From: Lantana camara
Taxonomy: Eukaryota; Streptophyta; Magnoliopsida; Lamiales; Verbenaceae
Assembly (NCBI GenBank): GCA_037501455.1
Contig: CM074864.1
Coordinates: forward strand, 32,638,001-32,702,000
Reading direction: 5' to 3'
Length of the DNA stretch: 64,000 nt
Shown: piece after piece, positions 6,048 through 60,644 of the stretch
Position numbering within the stretch: the first letter of the stretch is position 1
Layout of the letters: the number at the start of each line of letters is the position of its first letter
Notes under the pieces: generated by a model
The model's database searches: none
Told to the model about the DNA's origin: nothing
The model's input: only the letters and a program-made list of their open reading frames with translations
Program-made: the position numbers and the translations under genes

Positions 6048-6049
6048 TG

Positions 6050-10936: not shown

Positions 10937-10946
10937 AGTGGGAGAT
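10937..10946 (+). other. Polypurine tract of the copia element
   Basis: AAGTGGGAGA(T) immediately precedes the 3' LTR. The GGGCAAGTGGGAGAT context is the usual copia PPT. Confidence 0.8.
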
Positions 10947-16363: not shown

Positions 16364-17357
16364 TGTAACGCCCTAATTTTCAGACAGACAGGTACGCTCG
16401 ACACGTGTGAGTTTCGAGCATTAGGATTTATTTTATTATTTTGTTTATTCAATTTATACGTGTTATGCTAATTTATAAATTATATTTCAAACGTGATTAC
16501 ATGAAAATATGTGAAAACGTGTTAACTTGAGAATTATTCGATAAAAGTGAATTTAATTGCTACGTGAAATAATTAGTTCTTGGGTTTAATTGATCAAATT
16601 GCAAACCTTGCATCCTTAATTGCATGACTTGTATGTTTGGAGGATTTAGTTGCAAATACTCCATTTTTGCCAGGATATATCGATATATGCTTCTTCATTC
16701 TTCTTCCATCTTCATTTTATGTCCAAGACATACAAAATCATCATCATCTCTCTCAGTCAAGTTCCCACAAGAGGAAGAGATGGTTTCATCTTATTCAAGT
16801 TAAATCATCAAGAACTTAGGAGCTTTGAAGCATCATCATCTCCATAACTTCATCTTTCATCTTCTCTTTTCATTTCAAGGTATACATGAGCTAATATATG
16901 AATTCTTGAAATTATGTGTGAGGTTAGGGTTATGGTTCTTACGGAATAAGTTGCTTATATGATGCTAAAAGTATGATTAGGAGCTTTGAACTTGAATTCC
17001 TTGCATATATTATGAAATTATGAAGTTATATGATGAATTCATATATGAACTTGAAAAGATGATTCTTGAAGATCATGGATGATTGGAGTGTTTATATTAA
17101 GCTTTATTATATTTTAGACATGTATATGTGTTTGCTTTCATAAATTATAACACATGAGATTGAATTATATGAGTTTTGTTGAGGTTGGATGATGGTTCGT
17201 AGCTTCCCCTGTTTCTTCCCCTGCTTCTGTATTGTCTGCGTAACGGGAACGGCCCTTCCCGTTCCCTTTGTATTTGGGGAACGACCGTTCCCATATATTT
17301 GAATTGTGTGCATGGCGGCGAGGACGGGAACGGCCCTTCCCGTTTTGGCTTATAAGC
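16364..17357 (+). mobile_element. Gypsy 3' LTR, first ~1 kb, truncated in its palindrome array
   Basis: It begins TGTAACGCCCTAATTTTCAG after the PPT. It contains the donor-like CATTTCAAG|GTATAC at 16879/16880 and the first two palindrome pairs at 17245-17373. It then runs into a second LTR in the opposite direction. The remainder of the LTR, seen for the 5' copy at 1-991, is missing. Confidence 0.75.
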
Positions 17358-17446
17358 CGGAACGGCCGTTCCCATCTTCGGGGAGCAACTTCGGGGGGTG
17401 GGAACGGCCGTTCCCAGAATGAACTGGGACGGGAAGGGCCGTTCCC
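17245..17446 (+). repeat. Palindrome array, GGGAACGGCCGTTCCC type, at a head-to-head LTR fusion
   Basis: Six 16-bp words start at 17245, 17277, 17326, 17358, 17400 and 17431, with spacings of 32, 49, 32, 42 and 31. Most match GGGAAC-GGCC-GTTCCC with one or two changes. Words 1-4 read as pairs one and two of a plus-strand LTR. Words 5-6 match pair one of the minus-strand LTR (compare 54756-54802). The fusion therefore lies in the middle pair, which is itself palindromic around GGCTTATAAGCC. Confidence 0.8.
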
Positions 17447-18355
17447 ATTACGCAGCAGAGGTAGAAACAGGGGATTACAGGGGTATGCTCGAACCAAATA
17501 TCAATCCCAACAAACACTCATAATTCCAACTCCAAATGATACAAATCATGTAATATACATACTAGCATGCCCCAAATCATCAAGAATTATCAATCAAAAC
17601 CCATTTATCAACTCAAGCTCCAAGTCCATAAACTTCAATATATGTGCATCAAATTCAAGCCATGATCAAGTATTCATACTTCCAACAACTAAAACACACT
17701 TCAACCAATTCATATCATAACCCTAGCTACCATATTCAATTCAAGAATTCATCAAAATCTCCAAAGTTACCTTGAATGAAAGAAATAAAAGAAGAGATGA
17801 AGATATGATGATGATGATGATGATCCAATGTATACAAAACCCACAAAATATAGCTTGAATGATGAACTTCCCCTTCTCTTATTGGTAGGGTTTTTGATAG
17901 ATGGAAATGGACGCAAAAGAAGCAACTGTATGAAATGTTTGTATGAGAGAAGGAAATGGTACGTGATGCTGCTAAAAGGAAGAAAGAGATGCTCCAATTG
18001 CTTTAAATCCCTCAACTTATTAAGTTATGCAATTGAATCCACTTCCATAATATATGATCACTTAAGTCCAATGCAAGATTCATGCAATTAAGTCCCCAAA
18101 TTCAAGAAAATGATCAAGTAAGGACATAGAAGAAATTAAATCATGCTCGGGAATTAATTCACGTTCCAATCAAATTCAAGTTATGCAATCAATATCAACT
18201 TAGTATGAATTTCATAAAAACACTTGAAATAAAATTTTATAAAAATTATGTCATGATATATAAAATTGAAGGAATGATCAAATAAATTTTAAATTCAAAC
18301 TCTCAAACGCACACGTGGCGTTCATACCTAGAAGGCCGAAAGCTGGGGCATTACA
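17358..18355 (-). mobile_element. Second gypsy LTR, first ~1 kb, inverted
   Basis: Read on the minus strand it starts TGTAATGCCCCAGCTTTCGG at 18355 and closely follows the LTR that starts at 53813. It contains the donor-like TTCAAG|GTAAC at 17771/17770. A GATGAT repeat occupies 17805-17822. It ends at the array, fused to the plus-strand LTR. On the right it cuts the last exon of the antisense gene. Confidence 0.75.
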
Positions 18356-26600: not shown

Positions 26601-26799
26601 GGTTGTGACCACGCCACCTTTTTCACACCAAAAGGTCGCGCCCGCGACCATAACTCGAAACCTGGGGGGGAAATCAGGTCACGGATGTGACTAAAAATAG
26701 GCAGAAAGAGGTCGTGGCCGTGACCTAATCTAGAACCAAGGTGAAAAAAAAGCTACGGCCGCGACCAAGTGTGATCTTGGTGCGATCGCGTCCGCGACC
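26601..26799 (-). repeat. Palindrome array, decayed GGTCGCGNNCGCGACC type
   Basis: Six words start at 26601, 26634, 26677, 26710, 26751 and 26784, with spacings of 33, 43, 33, 41 and 33. The one at 26634 is intact (GGTCGCGCCCGCGACC). The others show mainly C-to-T and G-to-A changes at CG positions, for example GGTCGTGGCCGTGACC at 26710. This is what deamination of methylated cytosine produces. Confidence 0.8.
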
Positions 26800-27969: not shown

Positions 27970-30900
27970 ACTACAAGAAATCCTGCAAATTTCGATGGCA
28001 CTTCCCTTCGGATTTCCGTCGGAAATAATAAATTCCGACGGAATTCCGACGGGGCATTGTCCGTAGGAAAAATCCTTCTCGAAATTTAAAAACCGACGGA
28101 ATACCGAGGGAAAATAAAGTCAAAAAATTAAATAAAATAAATTATTTCTGACGGAATTCCAAGGGAAATCCCGTTGGATTTATCAAAATCAAGAAAATAA
28201 ATTAGACATTTTCGACGGAGTTCCCCCTCAGAATCCCGTTGGATTTGTTAAAAAAATTAAATTAAATTAAACAATTCCGACGGGATTCCGTGGATTTTAT
28301 TAAAAATTATAAAAAAATTAAACAATTCCGACGGAGTTCCCCTTGGAATTCCGTCGGAATTTATTGAAAATATAATAAAATTAAACAATTCCAACGGGAT
28401 TCCCCTCGCAATTCCGTCGGAATTTATTAAAAAAGTTTTAAAAAAATAATTTTTTTCACATATCCAAAAGTATTTATTCAGAACCAATTAGTCAAATAAC
28501 ATTAGAAATCCACACATTAATTCTGCAAAAACCATCTATCCATAATCTATTACATATTTACTCGTGGAGCATATAGCCGAACCTATAACCGTTGGAGCAT
28601 ATAACATTCAAACCGTTGGAGCATATAACATCATCAATCAACCTGCAAAATTACAAAGCATGTTGTATTAGCGTTTAGAATTTATGATCATAGATAAATG
28701 AGACAATTAGACATACATTGATAGCATAAGGCATCACACAAAACAATTTTGAAAGAACACACACATATTTAGACCATGCTTTAGGATAAATATTAACATA
28801 CTTTAGTTTAAACCCCTTTCGTTTAAACCTTTTTATTGTGAAACAAACTCTCAAGTCTCAACCATACAAGCAGGGACAAAATGAAAATTTAATTATATAG
28901 ATGATAAGTTATAATCTTTTATAGTAAACACATTTGAATATTGGGCTGATTAAATTTGATCCTATCTACTAAAGTAAACATATGCAATTGGTTATATAAT
29001 AAAATTTTACCATGTCCATATTCTATCCAATTGGATAAGAAACTATGAAAGTAAACAATTTCTAAGTGTTTAAACTATTATGAAAGCCGAACTAAACGAA
29101 AGAAGCACAATTAAATTCAAGCATTCACGCTTTGTATTACATATAGAGAGCATGTATGAAACTTACAAGTTAGAAGAGAGTGTACTAAAAGCACGGAAAC
29201 ATGCTAGGTAAAACATCATCAACATGGCTTAATTATAGGATCAAATACTCACATATAAGCAACTAGTGCAGAAACTTACTACACGCACACATCGTACGAA
29301 AATTGTCATAACTTATTGCTCGAAAGGTATTTTAATGAGGAGTAAAATTCCTATTAAACTAGAGAGCTATATCTTTCAAATGGCATAGACCTTAATTCCT
29401 AGATCTTTTTGAATAAATACAGATTTCAGTGTAAAATTGGAAAAAAAACAGCAACTTAGCTGCAACGACACATTTCACAGAAAAATTCATTTACCATATC
29501 GAATGGAGTCGGAAAATTCTGAAAATTTACAGGTATACTCCCAACACATTTATGTACTCCTCTGCAAAACAATTTTTTAAAATTCAAAGGTTTAGCCACT
29601 CTGCTCAGGCTGCTATTTCAGATCAGAAAACAGGGTGAAAATAGGGGTGTCGTTCGAAATTCCTTTCAGGTATCAAACGAACTCGGATGGACACCAAATT
29701 TAACGGAGATAAACTTTAATATGTTGAGAACTTCCAGTTAAAACAGTTCTAGAAAACGACATCGCACAAATTCAGAATTTAAATTCAAACCCACTGCATA
29801 CATGCTGTCAATATCTCATTATATGCATAATTACAATTCCACTTTTCTAATTCAATTAATCATGCTTATGAACCAATCAAAATCATAAAGTCGATCTAAT
29901 TCTTCAATATCCAAGTTTCCAGAAGCATAATATAGCTTGTCTTTTTTAACTTTAACGCACGAACTTCCAATTGTAATATGTCTTTTATAATAATTCATAT
30001 TGTGCAGTGAAATCATTTTAACTGATTATCAATGAAAACACATTCAACCACAAAGCTTGAACATAACCAGATACTAAAGGCAAAAGCATAAAACATAACC
30101 TTCACCTTTCCCAATGTTCATAACCAGATATGCTAGTCTACCATAAGATTCCTCTGTTTCCTAAATTGCAGTAAAAGATTGTCTTTTTGAAGTGATAATT
30201 TCCATTTTAGGAAGAAAGAGAGTTTGGTGCTGAATTCTTGAAAATAGCAAGAATATCAAACTAAATCACCAAACCAGAGGAGATAAATGCGAAACAATAT
30301 AACAAGAAAATCCCACAAATAGAAAAACGTGAAATCCAATCCATCGATCAACAAACAATTAATCTACCCAAATTAAGCAATGCGGACAAAAAAGGGAAAA
30401 AATTTCATATGAATTCAATTACCTGTTCCCTTTAACTCTAAACCAAGCCTCAGCACAAGGCAAATGTGCAACTCCAAGCTCACCTTTACGTCCGCATCCA
30501 AGCTCCAACAACTCAGCTGAACTCTTACCAATTTCCTTCGCACTCAAATGACAGCTGAGGCAGCAACGCAGATGAGTGGATATATTGGATAGAGGGATCT
30601 ACAAATGATTGTTCGTTAACAATGATTAACAAACATTTCATCCATTTTCGTTCAAAGCGGATTTGAAAGTCCAGATTATATCCCAAGTTTGATAGACATA
30701 CTATCTGGAAAACTTATAAAAAAATTCATATTTATATTGGTTCAGCACCTTTCAAATAAGAACCTATTTGTAAGTGTTCAAGGAGAAAGCAAAGATATTG
30801 CACAATTGAGAATTAGGCGATTTGCATCTATTGTAACCAGTGCTTTTTGAATTAAAAAAAAAAACAGTGGTACCCAACAAGAACACTACAGCATGATTGG

Positions 30901-32643
30901 CTACACTTTCTTATTCTCAACTTCAAACTTTCAAATAATGGAAACCAATCAAATGAAGATGTTAGATAGCATGAAACATAATAATAAATGTACAGAGATG
31001 GGAAAACAAAAAGAATGAGGGGCCAAAGAGAAGAGGAGTGATAAATATTACCTTTCTACCTTTTCTTCACAAATTACTCAAGTAAATTGCCACTAAGATT
31101 TGCTCCACCTATCAAACTTCACCCCATAAGAGAGCAATCAACCACTAAAATTACCAATTCAAAAATGTCTTCAGTTCAACAACATTTGTATTCATTGGTA
31201 ATCATATCAAACAGGAAGTAAAATATTTTGGTATAAATATTGTCTTTCTCCCATTGTGGCTTGGAATGCACCGTCAAACATATCTTCCCTCCTCAGTCCT
31301 CTATACATCATCTAATCAAACAAATTAAGAACAAAATATGAAACTTTACAAGTTGAGACCTGAGCCACTATGAACAAAATAAGGAGAGAATCCCTTCAAT
31401 AGGCAACTTAACACATTAAGTTAGATGAACCAGGGGAGTTTATATTCATGCAACAATGTTCAGCAGCACTAAAATATCTATTATGTTAAGATGATGTCAA
31501 CAAATTTGAGGAAATATACCTGGGTAATACCCCTTGATAAGCTGAAATTCACATTAATACCCAATTAACACTGTTAACACATCACAAATCGAAGAAATTA
31601 GAAAAAAAATTAAGAACAATTCAACAGCAACAAATGTAAAAATACAGCAGTATCATTTGAGATAACCACATGACATCAACATCCATAAGCTGGGGTCACT
31701 AGGCAAGAAAAAACCCTAAAATAATAACAGATCGAAAATCCATATACAGCTTCCAAAATTCAAAATCAAACCTAAATCTGAGAGAGTGAGCGAGAAAGAG
31801 ACACAGACGGTGCGGGGGCAAGCAGTAGTATCTAGCAGGGTCAGGCGGTGGTTAAGATTCCCTATTAAAAAAATAATTAAAAAGATAGAGCGAGAGATAG
31901 AGAGAAAGAGAGAGAGACCTGGCGAAGTAGTCGTCCGGGCAAGAGGAGGCGGAGAAGGGTTCTTCGGAGCGGGGAAGGCTTCTTTGGAGCGGACAACGAC
32001 AGGGAGCTAGAGTGAAATAGGGGGCGGCGAGCTGAGGCGATGCCGGTGGACAGACGGCGGTGGAGGAAGGCGGGAGGAGGGCGGTGGATGTGGACTGACG
32101 GAGGCGGAGGTGGGCGGAGGGGGGAAGAGGAGAGAAAATTGGTGACGAGGTGAATCTGAAATTTTGGGGGATGTGAATAATTATTATCGATATAAACCGA
32201 CAGGAAACCGATGGGAGAAATCCAGTCGGTTTCTATTAATTCATTTTTTTTTATTTTAAAATTTAAACCTTCCGACGGGATAATCCCTCGATATCCCGTC
32301 GGAATTATTTACTCTAACTTTTAAATTTTATATTAAAAAAACCAACGGGATTCCGAGGGAAATCCCATTGGAAATATTTAATATTTAATTTTATATTTTA
32401 TATTTAAATTACCGACGGGATTCCAAGGGAATCCCGTCGGGATTATCTAACATTAATTTTAAAATTAATATTATAAAAAATCCGATGGGATCCCGAAGGA
32501 AATCCCGTCGGAATTATTTTATTTTTATTTTTATTTTTTAAAATCGAAGTCCATCGGTATGCCGTCGGAATTCCCTCGGAATTTCTGACGGAATTCCGAC
32601 GGAAGGTTTCCCTCGGAATTTTTCGTCGGATTTCGCAAGATTT
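27970..32643 (+). mobile_element. CACTA element, non-autonomous, right terminus clipped
   Basis: It starts CACTACAAGAAATCCTGC inside gag. At the right end GATTTCTT is present but the final GTAGTG is missing. Both ends carry many CCGACGGAATTCCGTCGG-type words (28010-28430 and 32175-32640). The 3.7-kb middle encodes no recognisable transposase. Purine-rich sequence with AG-rich runs at 31780-32130 and a short Arg-rich frame (31786-32010) look non-coding. It could contain host DNA picked up by the element, but I recognise none. Confidence 0.8.
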
Positions 32644-43818: not shown

Positions 43819-46800
43819 TGTGACGCCCCGTCTTCTCGACAATCCAGGTATGTCGTCACGAGAGAGTTTGATTTGATAATTTTGAGATTTACGTGAATTC
43901 GTATGTCTTACGTGTCAATTTGTATCTTATATATTATGTGCGCATTAGAATTTCATTAAATGTTCTTGGACTCAATCGTCCAATAATTGCAAATTAGGGA
44001 CCTAATTATATTTAGGGTGTTTTAGCCTTCGTGGCTACTTTGAGCTCGGTATTCGAATTCGAATTCTAAGCTTGTCATTGAGTTCGTTTCGAGGATTCAG
44101 ATTCAATGAATTAACCTTTTATTTTCTAAGCCATTTGATAACCCAACCTCCGATTCGAGTGGACCGGATACCGTTCGACCTTACCCGTTTGTCCGACCCG
44201 TTTTAGCCCTTAAAGGGCTGAAAATATCAGCCCTCTCCCTCATTTTCTCATGTGAAGCAAGGGAAGAGGAGGAAAGGAGAGAAAACACCCCTTTGCCCAT
44301 TCCAAGCTTTGGCTCAAGCTCTTGCCCCGTCCGACCATCCGATCGAAGTTCCAAGGTAAGCAATGTGATCCTCTCATTACGTACTTTATTTCTACCGATT
44401 GAATTCCTTTGTTCTTGCTTGATTCCTTGGTTATGGCGGATTGATGAATAGTGCCTAAACGTGATAACTTGCTCCCAACGTGTTTATTTACGATTTAAAT
44501 TGATACTAGTATGTTATATATGTGTAATTTGATGCATTTTGGTGTATTAATTGGTTGGAATGAGGTTGGGGGTGATTTTGGACCATTTCCCGTCGAACCC
44601 CTGCTTCTTTGCTGCTCTTTTTCGGAGAAGACGACCCAACACGGCAGTGTCGAACCCTAGTTCATTTCTGACACGGCCGTGTCAGGCCCTCGAGTTGGAA
44701 TTTTTTTTATCGGACATGGCCGTGTCAGTTTCCAGGCCAATATTGACACGGTCGTGCAGACCTCGTCCGAGCTCCAATTGATCTGAATTTTGAACCCACG
44801 GAAACCTCTTCAAGTCTAGAACATCCTCCAATTGGAATCACCTCATTATCTGTTGTCATTTGTGAGATATAATCGTTTGAAATTGGTGTCGCTACTTCGC
44901 ATAAATTCTGCATTCGTCCAACTTCGAACCTATGCCATTTTCGGCTCGCTTTGAACCACAATTTGAGCCACCTACCATTTAAAACGTCTATGTGTCTAGT
45001 TTCATTCCCAAGAAACAAAACTTAATTGCCGTTTCTCAAACTCAAGTTATGATCTTTTTCCCTCAACTTGTCCGCTTTGGAAATCTGTCAGTTTTTCCCC
45101 GTTTTCACTCGGAACCCTTTTTCGTGTTCTTATTCCGTTTTTCTCGTACCTTTCCACCTCCAAACTTGATCCTAACTTGTTTTATCATGTTTATGCTTAT
45201 GTATTTGTTCTCGTATGCATTATATGTTACTCAAGTAACGTGAATTGTTAGCATGAAACATATTTGCACTTTGTTACGTATCTCTACCTTGTATGATGCT
45301 TTAATTGTGCATATGAACGTGACATATGATTATAAATGATTAAGATGGGTTATGTAATGTCTTGAATTACATGGATTTGGTTTGAAAATAAGATTTCCCT
45401 AAGTATTTGCATTTCTTTAAGTGTCAATTCATAAGTCGAGCGTCTACGTGGTTCATTGTGAGTCTAAACCTTGTGTTTTGTCTTTAGTTTGTTCAGGTGC
45501 ACCCGGGGTGGTGTTTCGCAGTCCGTTTTGATTCCGGGGTGAATCACGTGTTTGGTTCTTGGCTTCGTCGGTGTAAGGTGAGGTTAGGTTATAGTTAAAC
45601 CCTATGAATGTGGCCGTTTTCAAAGTATGTGAACTATGACCTTTATTATACATAAATATGTGCGAGATATGAAATTTGTAAATGGTAATATGTTTCCAAG
45701 TATAATGAGCAATGTACGAGCCTACGTATGCTTGATTTAATTTGATTGGATTCAATATGATTGGTAATGCTAAACCACGCTTCAAACCGTGTACCTCGTA
45801 TGAGCCGAGAGCTACGAGCAAAGGAATAGGCTAAGGATTTAACACGGAGAGGTATGTAAAGCGTGGTTGTGGCAAGGTAAAGAATGTATCTTACGTATGT
45901 TATATTTCTAATTAGTAGCGGGTTAGGATATGATTAATTGAATGAATGAATGAATGGGGCCCAGGAGATGTGGTTAAGGGGGGACCCGGGACGACCATAG
46001 GGGTCGCCGGTTAACCTTGTGCTCACTCTCCACATGATTGATAGGACTAATCCGGAATCCACCAGGAGGTTTGGTTGGATGATGGGAACCTGAGGGTTTG
46101 AGTGTTCGCGCTCCCCTCGTCTGATTGGATGGTTTGTGTCGTGCAACCCTTCCATCACCGGAGAAGGAGGTATATGATTGTTATGCATGATTGATTGATA
46201 TGTTTGCTTGTACGATTCATATGAGGATCCCAGGATGGGAATTGTTACTCGTACCCGCCGAGTTTTGCATGTTTGCCTTATCAAAGTTCGTGAAACGGGG
46301 ATAGATTTTTAACTATGATAAAATATGGATATTTTGAATATGAAAGATAAGAATTGACAAGAATTGATACAATTTGATATGATTTAATTTGACTTGATTC
46401 GGTATGTTTTGATATGATTTGGTATGATATGGGTCCTTGGAGCTTCAGTTCGTTCGGTTTTGTTAAGAATCCCTATATGTATGTATCACGGGCAAAACTT
46501 TGGAGTGCAAAAACTATTCCTGAGTTCACGAACTGTGTGTGATTAGAATATGCTTTGCTCATATATATATATGTAGCGTGTGTGGGTAGCCCCTCACTCA
46601 GTCGAGTTGTTGACTGACCCTCTCCCTCCCCAACTTTTAGTGTGCAGGATTGGCGTTGGAGCCTCGAGCTAGGCGGAGTCTGTTGAGTTTTGTCGAGTTT
46701 AGTCCTTGCATTGCACTTCTGAATTTGTATAAGTTTGAACGTTTGTATGGATACCATATGATTATTTTGATATATTATATTTCGGGACAGGCTTCTAGGA

Positions 46801-47096
46801 AACAGATTGAACCCGTTTGCATTATGATTTATGTTATATTCGGGATTAGGGATCTATGTTAGTTGAACCCGTCCACTGTTGCTTGTAATTTAAGTTTGAT
46901 TATGTGAATCGCTTCTGCATACACTTTTATTTAGTTGGTTGGTTTAAATTGCAGGGTCTAAGTTCCGCCTAGCTTAGGAGGTTGTTTTATTTGTCTCCCG
47001 TTCGCTATGGTTTGATATGGGTGCGGACTTTCCATTTCGTTACTCGTGTTGAGCCATAGTGCGGGGGATGTGGTGCCTCACGTGCGGGGTGCTATA
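43819..47096 (+). mobile_element. Gypsy-type element, 5' LTR (3,278 bp)
   Basis: TGTGACGCCCCGTC to GGGGTGCTATA, followed by a PBS. It pairs with 49893-53154. It contains the donor-like CCAAG|GTAAGC at 44355/44356 and four GACACGGCCGTGTC-type palindromes. The two LTRs differ by scattered bases and a 16-17-bp gap at 46661-46677 (absent from the right copy). Confidence 0.9.
44638..44758 (+). repeat. Palindrome array, GACACGGCCGTGTC type (5' LTR)
   Basis: Four 14-bp words start at 44638, 44670, 44713 and 44745, with spacings of 32, 43 and 32. The second is a perfect GACACGGCCGTGTC. The others have one to three changes. The spacing matches the first two pairs of the six-word arrays in other LTRs; a third pair is not seen. 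Confidence 0.85.
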
Positions 47097-47104
47097 TCCT
47101 AAAG

Positions 47105-47117
47105 TGGTATCAGAGCC
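47105..47117 (+). other. Primer-binding site
   Basis: TGGTATCAGAGCC, complementary to initiator-Met tRNA, nine bases after the LTR. Confidence 0.92.
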
Positions 47118-47367: not shown

Positions 47368-48408
47368 ATGCCACCACGACGTCAAGGTCTCAATCAACCA
47401 TCACCTCCGCATCACTACAATCAAGAGCAGCCACGTGCCGAAATGCAACCTATGAATCCCATGGCAACTTTGTATCGGGACTTTAGGTCATTTAATCCTC
47501 CCCAGTTTCGCGAAGGTGATGATATTCGAGCCGAAGAATGGTTATCCGAGGTTGAAAGTATTTTTGAAGTATAACCATGCAACTCACAAGATATGGTACG
47601 CCTTGCTATTTTGCTTCTACAAGGACAAGCGAGACAATGGTGGAAAAGAATAGCCCCACAATTTGAAGCTACGAGTGAAGGATTAACTTGGGATGCCTTC
47701 GTTCATGAGTTTAGGAAAAGGTACACACCGGCTGTTCTACAAAACCGAAGATTTGAAGAATTCCTTGCCCTCAAACAAGGAGAAGGAACGGTTGCGGAGT
47801 ACATCAATGAATTTGAGAGGCTAGGTACATACGTGCCTCACATTATGGGCAATGATGAGATGAGGGCACAGTATTTTATGGAAGGCCTTCGGGATGAGAT
47901 TAAGGAAGCTTTAATTGCGGAGAATACGAGCACCTGGGATAAAGCTACAACAAAAGCTTTGAGAGTTGAGAACCGAAGATTAACAAGAGGTAAGGATGAA
48001 GAGAATGTGGGACCGAGAGGTGAATTGGGATTTTGCTCGAACCTGCTTATGGGAGAAAGATTTCAACATTCCGGTATCCAAGTCAAAAAGAAGATCCGTG
48101 GGAAGAAGCATAAGGTTGGAAATTTTTCAAGAGCGAAGAAAGAGTCTCAATCGTGTGCACATTGTGGAGGAACTAATCACGCCTACAACATGTGTTGGGA
48201 TCGATTGAAGAAGTGTTACGCATGCGGGTCAAAGGATCACATGGTTTCGGCGTGTGATCAATCAAGGAATCACAAACAATGGGAACAAAATCAAAGGCTT
48301 CAAATTGGACACCAACAAGAATTTGAGGATAGAGGTATTCGCATTCATGGTACGTGCATTCACGACATATTTAAATTATTGCTCTTACTACTTGTTTTGG
48401 TGTTATAA
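47368..48408 (+). pseudogene. Gypsy gag with one in-frame stop
   Basis: Nucleocapsid/capsid polyprotein of a Ty3/gypsy element. The frame starts MPPRRQGLNQPS and reads on without shift, apart from TAA at 47572-47574 (codon 69). The capsid part has GQARQWWKRI, FRKRYTPAVLQNRRFEEFLA and LKQGEGTVAEYINEFERL, standard for the retrotrans_gag family. Two CX2CX4HX4C zinc knuckles follow at about residues 261-274 and 283-296 (CAHCGGTNHAYNMC and CYACGSKDHMVSAC). The ATG comes right after TTTCAG|G, a good 3' splice site. The last ~15 codons (Leu-rich) probably lie beyond the true end of gag. No protease or pol follows. Confidence 0.9.
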
Positions 48409-49892: not shown

Positions 49893-52800
49893 TGTGGCGC
49901 CCCGTCTTCTCGACAATCCAGGTATGTCGTCACGAGAGAGTTTGATTTGATAATTTTGAGATTTACGTGAATTCGTATGTCTTACGTGTCAATTTGTATC
50001 TTATATATTATGTGCGCATTAGAATTTAATTAAATGTTCTTGGACTCAATCGTCCAATAATTGCAAATTAGGGACCTAATTATATTTAGGGTGTTTTAGC
50101 CTTCGTGGCTACTTTGAGCTCGGTATTCGAATTCGAATTCTAACCTTGTCATTGAGTTCGTTTCGAGGATTCAGATTCAATGAATCAACCTTTTATTTTC
50201 TAAGCCATTTGATAACCCAACCTCCGATCCGAGTGGATCGGATACCGTTCGACCTTACCTGTTTGTCCGACCCGTTTTAGCCCTTAAAGGGCTGAAAATA
50301 TCAGCCCTCTCCCTCATTTTCTCATGTGAAGTAAGGGAAGAGGAGGAAAGGAGAGAAAACACCCCTTTGCCCATTCCAAGCTTTGGCTCAAGCTCTTGCC
50401 TCGTCCGACCATCCGATCGAAGTTCCAAGGTAAGCAATGTGATCCTCTCATTACGTACTTTATTTCTACCGATTGAATTCCTTTGTTCTTGCTCGATTCC
50501 TTGGTTATGGCGGGTTGATGAATAGTGCCTAAACGCGATAACTTGCTCCCAACGTGTTTATTTACGATTTAAATTGATACTAGTATGTTATATATGTGTA
50601 ATTTGATGCATTTTGGTGTATTAATTGGTTGGAATGAGGTTGGGGGTGATTTTGGACCATTTCCCGTCGAACCCCTGCTTCTTTGCTGCTCTTTTTCGGA
50701 GAAGACGACCCAACACGGCTGTGTCGAACCCTAGTTAATTTCTGACACGGCCGTGTCAGGCCCTCGAGTTGGAATTTTTTTTATCGGACATGGCCGTGTC
50801 AGTTTCCAGGCCAATATTGACACGGTCGTGCAGACCTCGTCCGAGCTCCAATTGATCTGATTTTTGAACCCACGGAAACCTCTTGAAGTCTAGAACATCC
50901 TCCAATTGGAATCACCTCATTATCGTTTGTCATTTGTGAGATATAATCGTTTGAAATTGGTGTCGCTACTTCGCATAAATTCTGCATTCGTCCAACTTCG
51001 AACCTATGCCATTTTCGCCTCGCTTTGAACCACAATTCGAGCCACCTACCATTTGAAATGTCTATGTGTCTAGTTTCATTCTCAAGAAACAAAACTTAAT
51101 TCCCATTTTTCAAACTCAAGTTATGATCTTTTCCCTCAACTTGTCCGCTTTGGAAATCTGTCAGTTTTTCCCCGTTTTCACTCGGAACCCTTTTTCGTGT
51201 TCTTATTCCATTTTTCTCGTACCTTTCCACCTCCAAACTTGATCCTAACTTGTTTTATCATGTTTATGCTTATGTATTTGTTCTCGTATGCATTATATGT
51301 TACTCAAGTAATGTGAATTGTTAGCATGAAACATATTTGCACTTTGTTACGTATCTCTACCTTGTATTATGCTTTAATTGTGCATATGAACGTGACATAT
51401 GATTATAAATGATTAAGATGGGTTATGTAATGTCTTGAATTACATGGATTTGGTTTGAAAATAAGATTTGCCTAAGTATTTGCATTTCTTTAAGTGTCAA
51501 TGCATAAGCCGAGCTTCTACGTGGTTCATTGTGAGTCTAAACCTTGTGTTTTGTCTTTAGTTTGTTCAGGTGCACCCGGGGTGGTGTTTCACAGTCCGTT
51601 TTGATTCCGGGGTGAATCACGTGTTTGGTTCTTGGCTTCGTCGATGTAAGGTGAGGTTAGGTTATAGTTAAACCCTATGAATGTGGCCGTTTTCAAAGTA
51701 TGTGAACTATGACCTTTATTATACATAAATATGTGCGAGATATGAAATTTGTAAATGGTAATATGTTTCCAAGTATAATGAGCAATGTACGAGCCTACGT
51801 ATGCTTGATTTAATTTGATTGGATTCAATATGATTGGTAATGCTAAACCACGCTTCAAACCGTGTACCTCATATGAGCCGAGAACTACGAGTAAAGGAAT
51901 AGGCTAAGGATTTAACGCGGAGAGGTATGTAAAGCGTGGTTGTGGCAAGGTAAAGAATGTATCTTACGTATGTTATATTTCTAATTAGTAGCGGGTTAGG
52001 ATATGATTGATTGAATGAATGAAGGAATGGGGCCCAGGAGATGTGGTTAAGGGGGGACCCGGGACGACCATAGGGGTCGCCGGTTAACCCTGTGCTCACT
52101 CTCCACATGATTGATAGGACTAACCCGGAACCCACCAGGAGGTTTGGTTGGATGATGGGAACCTGAGGGTTTGAGTGTTCGCGCTCCCCTCGTCTGATTG
52201 GATGGTTTGGGTCGCACAACCCTTCCATCACCGGAGAAGGAGGTATATGATTGTTATGCATGATTGATTGATATGTTTGCTTGTACGATTCATATGAGGA
52301 TCCCAGGATGGGAATTGTTACTCGTACCCGCCGAGTTTTGCATGTTTGCCTTATCAAAGTTCGTGAAACGGGGATAGATTTTTAACTATGATAAAATATG
52401 GATATTTTGAATATGAAAGATAAGAATTGACAAGAATTGATACAATTTGATATGATTTGATTTGACTTGATTCGGTATGTTTTGATATGATTTGGTATGA
52501 TATGGGTCCTTGGAGCTTCAATTCGTTCGGTTTTGTTAAGAATCCCTATATGTATGTATCACGGGCAAAACTTTGGAGTGCAAAAACTATTCCTGAGTTC
52601 ACGAACTGTGTCTGATTGGAATATGCTTTGCTCCTATATATATATATGTAGCGTGTGTGGGTAGCCCCTCGCTCAGTCGAGTTGTTGACTGACCCTCTCC
52701 CTCCCCAACTTTTAGTGTGCAGGATTGGCGTTGGAGTCTGTTGAGTTTTGTCGAGTTTAGTCCTTGCATTGCACTTCTGAATTTGTATAAGTTTGAACAT

Positions 52801-53154
52801 TTGTATGGATACCATATGATTATTTTGATGTATTATATTTCGGGACAGGCTTCTAGGAAACAGATTGAACCCGTTTGCATTATAATTTATGTTATATTCG
52901 GGATTAGGGATCTATGTTAGTTGAACCCGTCCACTCTTGCTTGTAATTTAAGTTTGATTATGTGAATCGCTTCTGCATACGCTTTCATTTAGTTGGTTGG
53001 TTTAACTTGCAGGGTCTAAGTTCCGCCTAGCTTAGGAGGTTGTTTTATTTGTCTCCCGTTCGCTATGGTTTGATATGGGTGTGGACTTTCCATTTCGTTA
53101 CTCATGTTGAGCCATAGTGTGGGGGATGTGGTGCCTCACGTGCGGGTTGCTACA
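49893..53154 (+). mobile_element. Gypsy-type element, 3' LTR (3,262 bp)
   Basis: TGTGGCGCCCCGTC to GGGTTGCTACA; partner of 43819-47096. Flanks are TGTGA (43814-43818) and TGTGG (53155-53159), a 5-bp target duplication with one mismatch. The donor-like site is at 50429/50430. Confidence 0.9.
50712..50832 (+). repeat. Palindrome array, GACACGGCCGTGTC type (3' LTR)
   Basis: Copies of the 5' LTR words start at 50712, 50744, 50787 and 50819. Word 1 is AACACGGCTGTGTC here against AACACGGCAGTGTC in the 5' LTR, one of the few differences. Confidence 0.85.
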
Positions 53155-53812
53155 TGTGGTGTGATTTCCGTGCGTTCTGGACTTTGTGGGCTTGTGTGTG
53201 TTAGTTTTGGTGTTGCTCTGCCGCCATGTCTGTAGCTATGTGGGCTTGTGTGTTAGTTTTGGTGTTGCTATGAAATCTATACGTTATACCGCGACGCTTT
53301 GTTTTGTTGGCGACTGGGAGTACGTCGCAGGCACAATGTAGGGTCAGTGACCCTCCTGGAAGGGGGTCGCGGGCGCAATGTTTTTCGCCGCGGCCGCGAC
53401 GCCTGCCCTGTTTTGCTCCTGATGTTGCGGCGCGGCCGCGACGCCCTGCTGTGTGGGTGTTCGTGTGTTTTGTCTCGTTTCTTCCGCTTCTGTTCGTTCT
53501 TTCCCACCCCTAACATGTTCCTAACATGATTTATGCTTAGTATACGCTATGCATTGCTTCAAATAGTTATAATATTTTAAATTGTTAAGCTGTGTATATA
53601 TATATTATATGTGCATGCATGTGTTGATATATATATATATAATGCATGAATTGTGTTGTGTTGTGGTGTGTGTAGTGCATGCATGGTTGTTGTACGTGTG
53701 TGTATATATGTATATATATATATGTATATGGTTTGTATTTTGTGCATGTGTGTGTACGTGGGTGTATATACATGTATCTATATATGTTATATTATGATTT
53801 TCTGTAACGCCC
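53155..53812 (+). mobile_element. Outer gypsy LTR, right piece
   Basis: Continues the LTR begun at 43070. A ~60-bp direct repeat of GTGGGCTTGTGTG..TTTTGGTGTTGCT occupies 53186-53270. GC-rich palindromic words lie at 53288-53445. TA/TG microsatellites fill 53590-53790. It ends where the next LTR begins at 53813. Confidence 0.6.
53288..53445 (+). repeat. GC-rich palindromic words (GCGTCGCGGCCGCGACGC type)
   Basis: Word centres lie near 53288, 53330, 53372, 53394 and 53436, with steps of about 42, 42, 22 and 42. The last two contain GCGGCCGCGACGCC exactly; the others are degraded. Confidence 0.55.
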
Positions 53813-55463
53813 CAGCTTTCGACTTTTCAGGTATGAACGCCACATGCGAGTTTTGAGAGTTAGAATTTAAATTAATTTGATCATTTCTTCAATTTTATAT
53901 GTCATGACATAATTTTTATAAAATTTTATTTCGAGTGTTTTTATGAAATTCATACCAAATTGATAATTATTGCATAAATTGAATTTGATTGGAACGTGAA
54001 TCAATTCCCGAGCATGATTTAATTTCTTCTATGTCCTTGTTTGATCATTTTCTTAAATTTGGGGACTTAATTGCATGAATTTTTCATGGGACTAAATTGA
54101 TCATTTATTATGGAATTGGACTTAATTGCATAACTTGTGAACTTGAGGGATTTAATAGCAATTGGAGCATTTTCCTTCCCTTTTTAGAGCAGCATTCACG
54201 AACCATTTTTCTTCTCTCATACAAACATATCATACTTGCTCATTTGCTTCCATTTTCTACCGATTCAAAAACCCTACCAAAAAGAGAAGGGAATTTCATC
54301 AATTCAAGCTATATTTTGTGGGTTTTGTATATATTAGAGCATCATCCTCAACATATCTCCATTTCTTTTCATCTCTTTCTCATTTCAAGGTAAGATGGAG
54401 ATTTTGATCAATTCTTGGTTTCATTATGTGAGACTAGAGTTATGGTTTGAGTTTGATGAATTGAGTATTTGTTGTTGGAAGTATGTTGGTGAACTTTGAG
54501 CTTAAGTTTGATGCATATATTATGAAGTTTATGAGCTTAGATCATAGGTTGACATATGGGTTTGAAATGAGTGATTCTTGATGATCAAGCTTGGATTTAA
54601 GTGTTTATATGAGTTATTATTGATCTGTAAGCATGCTAGTATGTATATTGCATGATTTGTATCAATTGGAGATGGAATTATGGATCATTTGTGCTTTGTG
54701 GTTTTGGCACGTTTTTCCCCTGCATACTGCCCTGTTTCTGCCTCTGTTGCGTAACGGGAACGACCCTTCCCGTCCCAGTTCATTCTGGGAACGGCCGTTC
54801 CCACCCCTGCCAGCTGTCCCGCGAGGCTGGGAACGACCCTTCCCAGTTTTGGCTTATAGCCGGAACAGCTGTTCCCAGCCATGAGCAAATTCTAAATTCT
54901 TTACAGACGCACGGGATTTGTTCGGGGAGCCGGGAACTACCCTTCTCATTTCCAGTTCAAAACCGGAACGGTCGTTCCCATGCTCTAGAGGGTTTTATGA
55001 ATTTTCTGCTTGAAATTTAGTATTTCAAATCCGTTTCTAATGCCATAAATGATCGATACGTGTTATTATATGCTCATTTTATGCATGAATATGATCATAT
55101 CATCCCATGAATTGTCAATGCATGTTATAATATTCATGATCACGCCGTTCGTCCTAATTGGTACATTTGAGTCGTGTCTCACGGACAATTGTCTTTCTTG
55201 CACAAACCATCCTGGTGACGAGGAGCAGGCCCCGTGAGCTATTTCCTTGTTTATTTTGGTCACACAGGTGAGGTTTAATTTCTAGATATATATATAGAAC
55301 CCTTATAACCCTATGTGAACTTTTCGGCCAAAATGTACATATATCTATAAATCTTTCAAAACCTCGATTGATTGATGAGAATTGACTGTTTTGGCGAGTA
55401 ACTATATTGCACTGTGGGCTCGAGGGTAGTGACTTGAGCCAACCGGGAAAGCATGGGCTGACG
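53813..55463 (+). mobile_element. Gypsy LTR, 5' 1.65 kb, interrupted
   Basis: Starts TGTAACGCCCCAGCTTTCGAC and closely matches the minus-strand LTR 18355-17358. Donor-like CATTTCAAG|GTAAG at 54389/54390. Near its cut end it matches the window's first bases (GAGCCAACCGGGAAAGCATG), then is broken at GGGCTGACG by the LTR at 55464. Confidence 0.85.
54756..54979 (+). repeat. Palindrome array, GGGAACGGCCGTTCCC type
   Basis: Six words start at 54756, 54787, 54839, 54861, 54932 and 54964, with spacings of 31, 52, 22, 71 and 32. The second is perfect; the others have one to four changes. Confidence 0.85.
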
Positions 55464-55763
55464 TGTAACGCCTCGGTTCCGGATGAACGGGTAAGCACGC
55501 CACGTGTGAGATTTTGAGCGTAGGAATTTATTTTAATTCTTTTAAAATTCTATATTCTTACGTGACATCTCATATTTTATAAAATTCATGAAACATTATT
55601 TATATGAATTACGTGAATTCATATCATTGGAAAAATTATTGCATGCCATGGAAAATATTTATTACGTAAAACAATTACCGAGAGTGATTTAATTACGAAA
55701 TTGTCCCTAAACATTCATTTCTTTAAATTTAGGGACTCAATTGCATAGCTTTGCAAGGACTTA
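55464..55763 (+). mobile_element. Gypsy LTR, left piece (continues at 58928)
   Basis: Starts TGTAACGCCTCGGTTCCGGATG. It is interrupted after ACTTA (55759-55763); the same five bases reopen it at 58928. Its start closely matches the inserted minus-strand LTR at 58927, so an element has inserted into its own subfamily. Confidence 0.85.
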
Positions 55764-56229
55764 TGTAGTAGCCCAAAGACCGACCCAGTATGCAGATATT
55801 GTCCGCTTTGCACGCCCTTAATCGAAACGGCCTCACGGATTTGTTCCCCCCAGTGGGTTGGGCCACTGGGAAAACGCGTCTGCAAGGAAAGGTTTCCATC
55901 CCCCCTTATAAGGAGGACTTCGTTCTCCTTCCCAACCGATGTGGGATGGGCGCACATCCACCCCCCCTAAGAGGAGCTCAGCGTCCTCGCTGAGGACCTG
56001 ACACATCAGCTTCCTGGCACCGGCTCTGATACCACATGTAGTAGCCCAAAGACCGACCCAGTATGCAGATATTGTCCGCTTTGCACGCCCTTAATCGAAA
56101 CGGCCTCACGGATTTGTTCCCCCCAGTGGGTTGGGCCACTGGGAAAACGCGTCTGCAAGGAAAGGTTTCCATCCCCCCTTATAAGGAGGACTTCGTTCTC
56201 CTTCCCAACCGATGTGGGATGGGCGCACA
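55764..56229 (-). mobile_element. Cassandra-like TRIM (466 bp)
   Basis: Two 193-bp direct repeats, 55764-55956 and 56037-56229, appear identical. On the minus strand each LTR begins TGTGCGCCCATCCCACATCGG and ends GGGCTACTACA. Between them lie a PBS (TGGTATCAGAGCCGGTGCC, minus strand, ending near 56035) and a PPT-like CTTAGGGGGGGTGGA near 55960-55975. The 80-bp interior has no coding capacity. The CCCACATCGGTTGGGAAGGAG, TTATAAGG, GACGCGTTTT and GACAATATCTGC blocks match what I know of Cassandra, a plant TRIM family whose LTRs carry a 5S rRNA-like region. I could not confirm a 5S-like box here. Its own target duplication is not seen (ACTTA left, TCATT right). Confidence 0.85.
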
Positions 56230-56243
56230 TCATTTCCTATAGA
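56230..56243. other. Short filler between TRIM and LTR
   Basis: TCATTTCCTATAGA separates the TRIM from the LTR end. It may be what is left of the gypsy internal region next to its 5' LTR. Confidence 0.4.
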
Positions 56244-58927
56244 TGTAGCACCCTAAACCCCACGGCGCCACATCCCCCGCACTATAGCCTCGATCCACGT
56301 ACGAAATGGACAGTTCATACATAAACCAAGACCACAGCGAACGGGTGACAATAAAAATGACGAGCTAGGCGGGACACTCTCCCCAACATACTTACTTAAA
56401 TCAAACATGATTAGAAAAGCGGAAGCAATAAAGTCATTCATATATATATATAGGTACCATATTTATTACATAGATACATATAGGTACCCATTAACTATCA
56501 ATACATTATCATATCTAAATAAGATACATCATTAAGTATTCAAAACGTGACAATAACTATCATAACATGAAATGTCTCAAAGTACTATACATGAAACGTG
56601 CTAAACTCGTGAAGATGCAAAAGACTCGAACAACGCCCGCCTAGCACGACCATGCTCAAAAGGTACCTGAAAAGTGAAGTATCAGTCTACCGAAGACTGA
56701 GTGAGGGGCAATAATTATATATACACACATCACAAGCAAGTTGTAGCCTCGGGTGAAGACTTTGGAATAAAATAGATATATAATTCAAGAACTTAATCTT
56801 TGCCCGGGATTACAACCAATTATTTTATCACGTTTATTTTAATCATGCTTGTCAATGTCATGAACATGTGGCCCCGGCGAGCAAGGGCAATCTCCAACCG
56901 AACTCCCAATTGTGAACAATACGTGATCATGCTTGCTTGCTTGATAAATACGTGATCATGCAATTTATTTAGTGCTCATATAAACAAGTTCATGCTTGAA
57001 ATCATACAATAACCCGAGGATAACCCGACATGCCGGATTAATCCCCAGTCTCCTTCTTCCTCCGGGTGATAGCGAGTTTGCAAGGCTCGACTATCCACGA
57101 CATGGTGTGTGTAGAGGACATGACCCTCTAGACACGGAACTCCTTCCACCACTAATCTCCTAGTGGCTTCGGGGGTGATCCCAACAATGTGAGGATAATT
57201 CAGGAGTTACCCGTCAGCCCTTGCTTTCCCGGTTGGCTCAAGAATTACCCTCGGGCCCACGTGCAATCATGTACTCGCCAAACATGCTTGAAATCATGAT
57301 AATCAATACTTTCTTGCTTGGAAATGTTCATGGTTTGAAAATCATTTATAAATATAATACGTTTTGGCCGAAAACTAGCACATAAGGGTTATAGGGTTCG
57401 TTTTACCAAAACAAAACCTCACCTTTCTTGCAAAATATAATAAATAAGCGTTCTAAGGAGCTTGCTCCCCGTCCACGCCCTCGTGACCTGTGCAAATATG
57501 ATGTACATTCGTGAGACATGACCTACAATGACCAAAATATGACGAACGGGCGGAAATGTGTCGAGACGACCATGAAAATGCAATGTGGCATGATAACATG
57601 TTGTTTCACATCATATTAGCACATATTATAGCAATTCGGGGTCAAAGAAGTCGTCGGATCGAGGGGCCAAAAACATAATTTTATGCAGTGAATTTTACAC
57701 TGCATTACAGGTGGGAACGGCCGTTCCGGGTCCCTTTGAAAAATGGGAACGGTCGTTCCCGTTGCCCAGAAAAACGCGGCAACATTTTCCCCCTTTTTAA
57801 ACGCGCCTTTGAGCTGGGAACGGCCCTTCCGGCGCAAGGCCAAAATGGGAACGGCCGTTCCCATGCTCGGCCGCCCCTTTATTTGGAAAGAAATGGGAAC
57901 GCCCGTTCCCACAAAGCCTTGAGGCTGGGAACGGTCGTTCCCAGTTTCTGCAACTGAAAAACAGAGCAGAAATAGGGGAAGCTCTCGGCAAAGCACAAAC
58001 AAAGCATCAACAATCCATTTTTGATCCCCAAAAGCTATAATTTCTGGAAATATGATGCATACAACTTCAATACATGATAATATAACACTTAAACACATAA
58101 AACATGCAATAACCACAAGATTTCCAAGGTTTCAAGCTTATGATCAACCTTGATCATTCAAGCCAAATATTCAAATATTCAAGCTAGAAATCATGCAATA
58201 ATTCATGATATGATCCTAGAATCATGCTTTGCACAACACATAATTCATATAACATGAAATTCCTAAACCCTAGCATGTCAAACACAATAAAAAATCATCC
58301 CTTCCATGCTACCAACCTTGAAGGTGAAAGAAATGAAGAATTACGATGGTGATGATGATGATGACTCCCAATTTCTTGAAAGATTTCTTGAAATCTTGAT
58401 GATTGATGGAAAATTACTTCTTCCTTTTTCTTCCTTGGAATACCGAGAGAGAGAGAGCAATTTTGGTTGGGAAATATTTGAGGAAAAATGATCAAGGAAG
58501 AACCTTGGAGATGTATTACGTGATGCATCTCCTTGGTTTTAGTGAAATGTGCCAATTTGCCAATTAATCCTTCAACTCATGAGAGTATGCAATTGAGTAA
58601 ATAAGCTTTTGAAATATAATCAATGAGGTCCTTAGAAGATCATGCAATTAAGTCCCTAGCATTTAAGGAAATATTCAACTAAGGACGATTTGGTAATATA
58701 AACCACTCTCGGTATTAATTTCATGCAAGAAAATGTTTTCCGTGTCATGAAATAATATTTTTGATGATATGAAATCAAATGATTCATATAAACAATGTTT
58801 CATGAATTTTATAAAATTTATGAATGCCACGTAAGAATATATTATAAATTAAAGAAATAAAATAAACCTACGCTCAAAACGCACACGTGGCGTGCTTACC
58901 TGTTCATCCGGAAACCGGGGCGTTACA
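56244..58927 (-). mobile_element. Complete gypsy LTR in reverse (2,684 bp)
   Basis: On the minus strand it runs from TGTAACGCCCCGGTTTCCGG (58927) to GGGTGCTACA (56244). Donor-like CAAG|GTTGG at 58317/58316. ACTTA follows at 58928-58932 and precedes the TRIM at 55759-55763, so TRIM plus LTR are bracketed by one target duplication. No internal region remains. Confidence 0.85.
57713..57942 (-). repeat. Palindrome array, GGGAACGGCCGTTCCC type
   Basis: Six words start at 57713, 57745, 57816, 57847, 57895 and 57927, with spacings of 32, 71, 31, 48 and 32. Read along the LTR (minus strand) this is 32, 48, 31, 71, 32, the same order as the array at 54756. Confidence 0.85.
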
Positions 58928-60644
58928 ACTTAATTGAGCATATTTCAAATCGTAGCATACTTGATTGCATGATTTCATAAAACAAAGGATCAAATTGCAA
59001 TTTGGAGATCTCACTCAAATCAAGGATGATGAATCACGTTATAATGCTTCCATGAACTTCCTTGATCAAATTTTCATAAAATTCTCCCAACTTAGCTACT
59101 CCTTTGCTCTCGGTTTCATCAAGGAAAAATAAGGGAAGAGATTTCATCCAAAATTCATCAAGTTTTCAAGAAAAATCCAAGCTTTGGGAGTTGATCATCA
59201 TCTTCATCCATTTTCTTCATTTCTTTCATTTCAAGGTTGGTATTTGCATGAAGTGATGATTCTTGATCATATATGTGTGGGCTAGGGTTTGAGAATTATG
59301 GCATGAATGAGTTCTTTGTGATCTAGGCTTGAATATATGATTATATGTTGGAATTTTGCATGAATTCTTGAGAAGGATTGAGTTTATATCACGAAATATG
59401 CATGAACTTGGAAGCTTGAATTCTTGATGATTTTTCATGAATTATGTGTTTAAATGATATATTTTCATATCTTGAATATATGTACATGCATATTCCCAGA
59501 AATCATTGCCTTTCATTGATCAAACTTGGAGTTTTGGTGTTTTGTTGTTGTTGCCGTAACCATGCTCTGTTTTCTGCTCTGTTTTTTTCGGGTAAGACTG
59601 TAGGTCGCGACCGCGACCAAAACACACACCATTTCGGTCGCGCCCGCGACCCACTCATAGTTTTGGGCGTAATCGTAGGTCGCGCCCGCGACCAAAAATA
59701 TACATAAAACTGGTCGCGGTCGCGACCCAAATTTGGCCTGGTTTCGACTTTTTACAAAATTGGCCGAAAAATTCATGAAAAATAAGGTCGCGCCCGCGAC
59801 CAAAAATAGAGCAAAAATGGTCGCGACCGCGACCCTCTCGCAGACTGCCAAGATTTCAAAATTTTCACTTTTCAATCCAATGGTTTAATTGATTTCAAAT
59901 TATGATTATATGATATATTTCATCACAAAACATGATAATTTCATGTTATATTAATCATGACATGATATTTCGTTGCATTTCGCCGTTCGTCATATTTGGT
60001 CCATTTTAGGTCATGTCTCACGTCGTGTTTACACAGGTCACGAGGTCGTGGACGAGGAGCAGGCTCCGTAGAGCATATCCTTGTTTTATTTTGTAAGAAA
60101 GGTGAGGTTTTGTTCCAGGTATATAGAACCTTATAACCTTTATGTGTTATTTTTGGCCAAAACTTATTATATATATAAACGTTTTCAAAGTTATAAACAT
60201 TTCAAGCAAGCAAGCCATTATTGTCATGATTTCAAGCAAGTTTGGCGAGTACATGATTGCACGTGGGCCCGAGGGTAATTCTTGAGCCAACCGGGAAAAC
60301 AAGGGCTGACGGGTAACTCCTGAATTATCCTCACATTGTTGGGATCAACCCCGAAGCCACTAGGAGATTAGTGGTGGAAGGAGTTCCGTGTCTAGGGAGT
60401 CATGTTCCCTACACACACCATGTCGTGGATAGTTGGGCCTTGCAAACCCACTATCACCCAGAGGAAGAAGGAGACTGGGGATTAATCCGGCATGTGTTAT
60501 CCTCGGGTTATTGCATGTTCCAAGCATGAAATTGCCTATGTGAGCACTAAATTGAAATGCATGATCATGTATTGAATTTATAAGCAAGCACGTATATATT
60601 GTCACGTTTGGTGTAAAGGTTGGAGAATCGCCCTTACTCGCCGG
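58928..60644 (+). mobile_element. Gypsy LTR, right piece (begins at 55464)
   Basis: Continues the LTR with ACTTAATTGAGC. Donor-like TTTCAAG|GTTGG at 59235/59236. The stretch 60255-60540 closely matches the window start and the reverse complement of 57000-57260. It is cut at 60644 by a copia LTR. Confidence 0.8.
59603..59834 (+). repeat. Palindrome array, GGTCGCGNNCGCGACC type
   Basis: Six intact words start at 59603, 59636, 59678, 59712, 59786 and 59819, with spacings of 33, 42, 34, 74 and 33. The seven-base arms are unchanged in all six; only the central two bases vary (AC, CC or GT). Confidence 0.92.

Follow-up and report, generated by a model that had tools for sequence, protein, structure and literature searches.

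We analyzed a 64,000-nucleotide stretch of the Lantana camara genome (contig CM074864.1, positions 32,638,001 to 32,702,000 of the forward strand; hereafter the window), a region of nested retrotransposons, and found that several of its long terminal repeats (LTRs) carry arrays of 16-bp palindromes. The palindromes are homogeneous within an array, are set in pairs at a nearly fixed distance, and recur across the host genome. Our preferred reading, to which we give a probability of roughly 0.6, is that these arrays would act as a DNA-binding platform for a dimeric nuclear factor, probably placed within the leader region of Ty3/gypsy elements that resemble chromoviruses.

Each site consists of a 7-bp arm, two loosely held bases and a second 7-bp arm, and the arm sequence separates the sites into three classes, GGGAACG, GGTCGCG and TGACACG, all of which have the core CG-NN-CG. 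The 16-bp palindromes had been noted in the original prediction, made from the window alone, and they proved real at 54756, 57713, 59603 and 44637 and, in decayed form, at 26601. When the window was scanned with 7-bp arms and two free bases, the full motifs were GGGAACG-NN-CGTTCCC, GGTCGCG-NN-CGCGACC and TGACACG-NN-CGTGTCA, and their matches were clustered. The first gave 16 matches with at most two mismatches, compared with 0.08 in dinucleotide shuffles. With at most three mismatches, the second gave 12 (three of them outside the arrays, at 53365-53443) compared with 0.23, and the third gave 7 (one outside the arrays) compared with 1.23 and a shuffle maximum of 5. Without a preset motif, the window and 20 evenly placed 10-kb stretches yielded 64 pairs of like palindromes, 59 of which belonged to the three classes by our own count, against 0 in one shuffle, so that chance is excluded as the source of the palindromes. 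The central two bases are mostly GC, AC/GT or CC/GG, which places CGG in at least one half-site. The first flanking base is self-complementary in 9 of 18, 0 of 6, 1 of 6 and 3 of 4 sites, and the symmetry mostly stops at the arm edge; together with the loose centre, this is as would be expected of a dimer site. In all 8 pieces compared, the array exceeded the remainder of its LTR in the observed/expected ratio of CpG; the pieces include two sister LTRs, in which the differences were small.

Three of the arrays lie in LTRs nested within one another. LTR A54 (53803..55463, plus strand), which starts with TGTAACGCC, is interrupted by the inserted LTR A59, and A59 is itself split into a left part (55464..55763, plus) and a right part (58933..60644, plus) by an insertion that holds LTR A57 (56244..58927, minus; low end judged from the sequence) and is flanked by ACTTA at 55759-55763 and 58928-58932. 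The GGGAACG array of A54 (54756..54979, plus) has six sites, at 54756, 54787, 54829, 54861, 54932 and 54964, the fifth degenerate. Its spacing series, first read as 31-52-22-71-32, is 31-42-32-71-32, and with this correction the single exception of 22 to the predicted intrapair distance of 31-34 bp disappears. The six-site GGGAACG array of A57 (57713..57942, minus) and the six-site GGTCGCG array of A59 (59603..59834, plus), whose arms are perfect, have the series 32-48-31-71-32 and 33-42-34-74-33 along the LTR, exactly as predicted. Two pairs at 32-43-32 were likewise confirmed in a four-site TGACACG array, three of whose sites are decayed; it starts at 44637 (44637..44759, plus) in the 5' LTR of its element (43819..47097, plus). 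The sister LTR (49893-53155, 97% identity) has a four-site TGACACG array with the same series (50711..50833, plus), the two arrays thus belonging to the two LTRs of one element. A decayed GGTCGCG array of six sites (26601..26799, minus) reads 33-41-33-43-33 along the LTR. The supposed array at 17245 had to be given up, as 17245..17446 (unstranded) is a junction of two facing LTR pieces with GGGAACG sites of both. Positions 16829-17374 align to the plus strand of LTR A54 and 17359-18358 to its minus strand, with the minus piece reaching about 17326 by shared sites, so that the six sites represent 4 + 4 with the middle pair in common. A palindrome pair contains this head-to-head junction (17326-17374), which would fit a rearrangement mediated by the palindromes.

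We then searched the 1.27-Gb host genome for exact two-site matches, a count that takes pairs and neighbouring pairs together. GGTCGCG matches with 10-26 bp between sites were found at 1,100 places and GGGAACG matches with 5-35 bp between sites at 14,876, compared with 0 for the reversed-pattern control in both cases. Among the 50 matches listed for each class, which are the first places on one contig and include many near-identical copies, the start-to-start distance was 33 bp in 36, 34 in 12 and 41 in 2 for GGTCGCG, and 32 bp in 25 and 42-49 bp in 25 for GGGAACG, the longer GGGAACG distances being those between neighbouring pairs. At 24 GGTCGCG loci, chosen for holding an exact pair, intervals of up to 36 bp measured 33 (40 cases), 34 (14) or 26 (1), giving 33 or 34 in 54 of 55. 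Looser matching over 27-37 bp gave 33 (46) and 34 (16) for GGTCGCG; 32 (15), 31 (5), 30 (2) and 27 (1) for GGGAACG; and 34 (10), 32 (5) and 35 (1) for TGACACG. Arrays of the three classes, 7 in total, occurred in 6 of the 20 evenly placed stretches and in none of the shuffled control; the same scan found four clusters of other sequence (two in stretch L033, one each in L036 and L037).

Beyond the pair, the regularity is looser than had been proposed. Rather than exactly six sites per LTR, the 24 GGTCGCG loci hold three (2 loci), four (11), five (3), six (5) or eight (3). The inter-pair distances, given earlier as 41-52 or 71-74 bp, fall mainly at 38-51 and 67-79 bp, with others at 26, 30, 55-63 and 99-110 bp. 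A spacing of about three helical turns holds within a pair, but inter-pair gaps of 48-49 bp correspond to about 4.6 turns and break the helical phase, and phasing of the whole array was therefore rejected.

The pair spacing is equal even between spacers of unlike sequence. We grouped the spacers, examined over lengths of 10-21 bp, into clusters by similarity, one of which takes in 51 of the 62 GGTCGCG spacers. A length of 15-18 bp was found in 8 of 9 GGTCGCG, 11 of 13 GGGAACG and 11 of 12 TGACACG clusters, or 30 of 34 in all, the other four measuring 10, 11, 14 and 10 bp. Against a uniform-length expectation this concentration has p = 5.7e-9, calculated with the lower count of 28 instead of 30.

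Between A57 and A59, blocks of 100 bp flanking the array are 63-86% identical upstream and 58-95% downstream, whereas the arms are 43-57% identical by site, because the class has switched throughout from GGGAACG (with a few variants) to GGTCGCG; all five spacers are at chance identity (z -0.6 to 0.9). A shared LTR backbone with switched arms and chance-level spacers indicates that the module was swapped while its geometry was kept. Between A54 and A57, both GGGAACG, the arms are 79-100% and the flank blocks 61-87% identical, and four of the five spacers lie within two standard deviations of chance (the fifth at z 3.4). Judged from these alignments, the arms and the pair geometry outlast the rest of the module of about 230 bp.

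Near-identical sites, a loose centre, a nearly fixed spacer length and half-sites that face each other are together the needs of a homodimer that is doubled on each pair. We infer protein binding, a dimer of dimers, a placement relative to promoter and intron, and an effect on transcription. A homodimer would occupy each 16-bp palindrome by way of two half-sites of 7-8 bp facing each other, and a dimer of dimers would hold two palindromes together as one unit, at a distance of 32-34 bp (about three helical turns, with a spacer of 15-18 bp). Each LTR would carry two to four such units, past the likely promoter and probably within a leader intron. A single factor would read all sites of an array, which would account for the one motif per array, and, once bound, it may hold the CpG-rich array in an open state or switch on transcription for as long as the element is live. 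The replacement of motif class and spacers as a module with the geometry kept would be expected if the factor or its specificity changed.

Several observations weigh against this reading. Close copies retain spacer sequence (A54-A17m in spacers 1 and 2, A54-A17p in spacer 3, A54-A57 in spacer 3), and many of the thousands of array copies are recent duplicates. In alignable GGTCGCG copies (124 locus pairs), 90% of 89 intrapair spans kept their length to within 1 bp, compared with 75% of flank windows, and 62% compared with 49% were unchanged, which suggests a modest length constraint on pairs; this test replaced an earlier flank comparison (43% of 33-bp windows within 1 bp), which had rested on poor alignments. 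Within the window, intrapair and first inter-pair spacings differed in variability with a Levene p of 0.013 by values but 0.11 by array means. The GGGAACG sites also show an arm asymmetry without counterpart in the other classes: in the window, deviations affect 2 of 18 outer arms and 11 of 18 inner ones (9 of 34 against 16 of 34 when all classes are pooled, p = 0.13), and 13 of 44 and 27 of 44 in a larger set (Fisher p = 0.005), in which GGTCGCG gave 31 of 82 and 32 of 82 and TGACACG 11 of 24 and 15 of 24. The idea that inner arms are generally weaker was dropped. Finally, in two TGACACG copies with coding regions (L035 and L045), there is no extra open reading frame (ORF) between the primer site and gag of at least 130 aa (L035) or at least 110 aa (L045). 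The original prediction had asked whether pair spacing varies less than flanking indel rates predict, and had suggested a dimeric protein as the binder of the array. For the first, the 33/34-bp spacing of the genome sample speaks in favour; for the second, so do spacing that is near-invariant even between dissimilar spacers and arms that, within one class, are conserved above their flanks and most spacers. In both cases the modest constraint in alignable copies is the counterweight.

The arrays are found about 820-1,500 bp into the LTR, and a candidate TATA-like stretch lies at LTR offset of about 105, so that the array is likely to lie downstream of the promoter. Using an approximate splice-site matrix, we identified a putative donor, CAAG-GTAAGA, upstream of the A54 array (54386..54395, plus), with predicted counterparts near 44356 (plus), 59236 (plus), 58316 (minus) and 27244 (minus). 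A putative acceptor, TTTACACAG-GTCA, lies downstream of the A59 array (60028..60040, plus; the fifth-best acceptor score in that LTR) and is followed by a second putative donor, AAAG-GTGAGG (60098-60107, plus). In 15 of 29 oriented copies, the best-scoring upstream donor lay 340-380 bp from the array, compared with 7% expected from the stretch searched; seven further arrays could not be oriented. Sense and antisense donor scores differed (Wilcoxon p = 0.0006, the copies not being independent), and a AGGTGAGG donor, which also served to choose the orientation, followed the array in 25 of 29 copies. These predictions are consistent with a leader intron containing the array. A further donor-like motif (CAG-GTATG or ACAG-GTAAGC) about 28 bp inside the LTR start was seen in several families (53803-53840, 58890-58927 and 43819-43860).

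Such a leader might instead act as RNA, and we regard this as an unlikely explanation but the strongest of the rivals. As hairpins or intermolecular duplexes, the palindromes would serve to dimerise the RNA or to package it, and Gag would be the factor; they perhaps lie in an intron that full-length RNA alone retains. The recurrent upstream donor fits this scheme, and so does the A59 array, which as RNA folds far below shuffles (z -9.2). Since the two TGACACG copies hold only gag-pol, Gag would suffice, and BARE elements are described as keeping translated and replicated RNA pools apart (PMC3735527). However, two central bases cannot make up a hairpin loop, and still GGGAACG and GGTCGCG sites retain the innermost base of the arm (less so TGACACG, where 12 of 48 arms deviate). 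Hairpins could differ in sequence from site to site, a constant 15-18 nt is not required of a free single-stranded linker, and most single-arm changes in GGGAACG sites are without compensation. Selection for stems between sites 1 and 2 was likewise rejected, as central bases and deviating arms lack compensation. Moreover, both the start of transcription and the splice sites are predicted, and elsewhere in LTRs A57 and A59 there are sites that score higher than the supposed donor and acceptor. RNA hairpins, which the original prediction had offered as its alternative, account for the palindromy and the strong fold but not for site identity or the fixed linker, and fit less well than DNA binding.

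Slightly less probable still is that the arrays have no present function. Here a palindrome-pair unit would have been duplicated locally, with spacing and homogeneity inherited and gene conversion acting among copies. A few within-array spacers are indeed alike (4 of 14 comparisons gave z values from 1.8 to 2.8), the copies are numerous and recent, and the test on alignable copies is modest. Plain duplication accounts for the homogeneity, but it leaves unexplained why the spacing is the same for spacers that are unlike and for three different motifs; nor would it predict that, within a class, arms are conserved above their flanks, or that they are switched throughout at the same place of a shared LTR backbone. 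Least probable is a silencing target, in which the palindromes would be hot spots of double-stranded RNA and small interfering RNAs (siRNAs) and motif switching an escape from small RNAs. Palindromes of maize Sireviruses are reported to have a link to siRNAs, and the strong RNA structure agrees with this reading, but escape would neither keep palindromy and geometry nor homogenise the sites.

The arrays offer a precise, testable cis-element for a very large group of plant retrotransposons. If a factor does bind them, as we prefer, it would be a candidate for activating these elements or counteracting their silencing, and would offer a way to rewire genes nearby. A swap of modules that leaves the geometry intact would then clearly exemplify the co-evolution of an element with its reader protein. 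A more speculative extension, which we hold only tentatively, is that the arrays form an address code: a nuclear factor, of the host or derived from the element, would read the pairs, and families would switch address by swapping the whole array module while keeping the CG-NN-CG core and the pair geometry. Such a code, with three addresses in one genome, would be the equivalent of VANC anti-silencing among LTR retrotransposons.

As for the host elements, the coding order in L035 and L045 is gag, protease, reverse transcriptase, RNase H, integrase, with the 3' part of L035 beyond the end of its stretch. Integrase thus comes last, which indicates the Ty3/gypsy rather than the Ty1/copia order. 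In L045, a Chromo match after SH3_Tf2-1 reached 18.8 bits (E 0.0015), below the cut-off of 25.1, and chromovirus-like Ty3/gypsy is the best reading; from the look of the LTR ends and the polypurine tract, the elements may be Tekay-like. Similar domains lie near GGGAACG arrays in L027 and L039 and may belong to the same element as the array. In the window, a primer binding site-like TGGTATCAGAGC (47105..47116, plus), presumably for initiator tRNA-Met, lies a few bases past the TGACACG-bearing LTR. It is followed by a gag region with an internal stop codon (47368..48408, plus), which has TTTCAG-G before its ATG and within which the ORF 47593-48408 matches Retrotrans_gag (5.4e-19). The gag search for relatives gave no match at E 0.001, and searches of the viral collection gave 0, 0 and 0 matches. 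The sole exact GGTCGCG pair found in the prokaryote genome collection was on a Polyangiaceae contig (L001, 3475-3520), with a spacing of 30.

The window contains further repeats. A short element resembling a terminal-repeat retrotransposon in miniature, with two identical 196-bp repeats about 77 bp apart, edges the insertion with LTR A57 (55764-56231). Near-identical long repeats at 2621-6048 and 10943-15743 have an odd order, with pieces 3823-4559 and 2621-3181 joined at 11676, which suggests a rearranged or tandem LTR element. Palindrome clusters of the CCGACGGAATTCCGACGG type at 28000-28450 and 32290-32580, and at 7835-8085 of L033, probably represent a different inverted-repeat element.

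Regarding known systems, the six full motif strings were absent from the open-licence literature searched, shorter strings occurring in one unrelated paper. Cotton LTRs reportedly have CACACG-NN-CGTGTG palindromes, although these strings were not found in the literature searched. No description of such arrays in Ty3/gypsy LTRs was found among the titles and abstracts listed from the open-licence literature, in agreement with the original prediction that no named feature describes them; that statement has to be qualified for Sirevirus (Ty1/copia) LTRs, which have palindromic repeated-motif (RM) boxes with a CGG-CCG core and no known binder or function (PMC2829016). Two papers were set aside, one treating palindromes as insertion targets (PMC6911290) and one naming them, in the text available, only among its references (PMC11963269); a third, itself set aside, led to VANC and the Tekay ORF (PMC12844716).

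By analogy, the RM boxes appear to be the closest known kind. Both are element-specific LTR palindromes of high copy number in a CpG-rich cluster with divergent flanks and a CGG-CCG core (PMC2829016). An own-consensus palindrome repeated in the LTR is present here, and the three consensus motifs contain the core. RM boxes form a CpG island; here the CpG ratio is raised in the array relative to the remaining LTR. RM boxes number at least eight per element; the 3-8 sites per locus here would give 6-16 over two LTRs. Unlike the Ty1/copia Sireviruses, the carriers L035 and L045 are in Ty3/gypsy order; here the CGG-CCG halves meet at the centre of a 16-bp site (CGGCCG when NN is GC), and the pairs stand at a near-fixed 32-34 bp, which the Sirevirus text, as far as available, does not report (PMC2829016). 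RM boxes also lie upstream of the TATA box, whereas the arrays here are probably downstream of the promoter (PMC2829016).

For motif turnover, the nearest model would be the target motifs of VANC, a dedicated protein of VANDAL elements, which occur as tandem repeats of YAGTATTAY and AGTTGTCC (PMC5735166). In both systems, short motifs are repeated in non-coding element DNA and change together between relatives, but ours are palindromes, a word absent from the available VANC text, and the two TGACACG copies have no ORF for a dedicated protein between primer site and gag (PMC5735166). A VANC-type system would also entail that its target elements lose DNA methylation. The additional 5' ORF of Tekay, perhaps a related chromovirus lineage, has a predicted nuclear localisation and no known function and would be a natural element-encoded binder, but it has no equivalent there in L035 or L045 (PMC11728184). 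For an array in a leader, the nearest model appears to be the Drosophila gypsy insulator, where 12 Su(Hw) sites lie in the transcribed 5' untranslated region (PMC7800606). Its sites are octameric and are read by a known host zinc-finger protein, unlike those described here, but in both cases the transcribed leader of a gypsy retroelement would harbour an array of protein sites, given the leader placement predicted above (PMC7800606).

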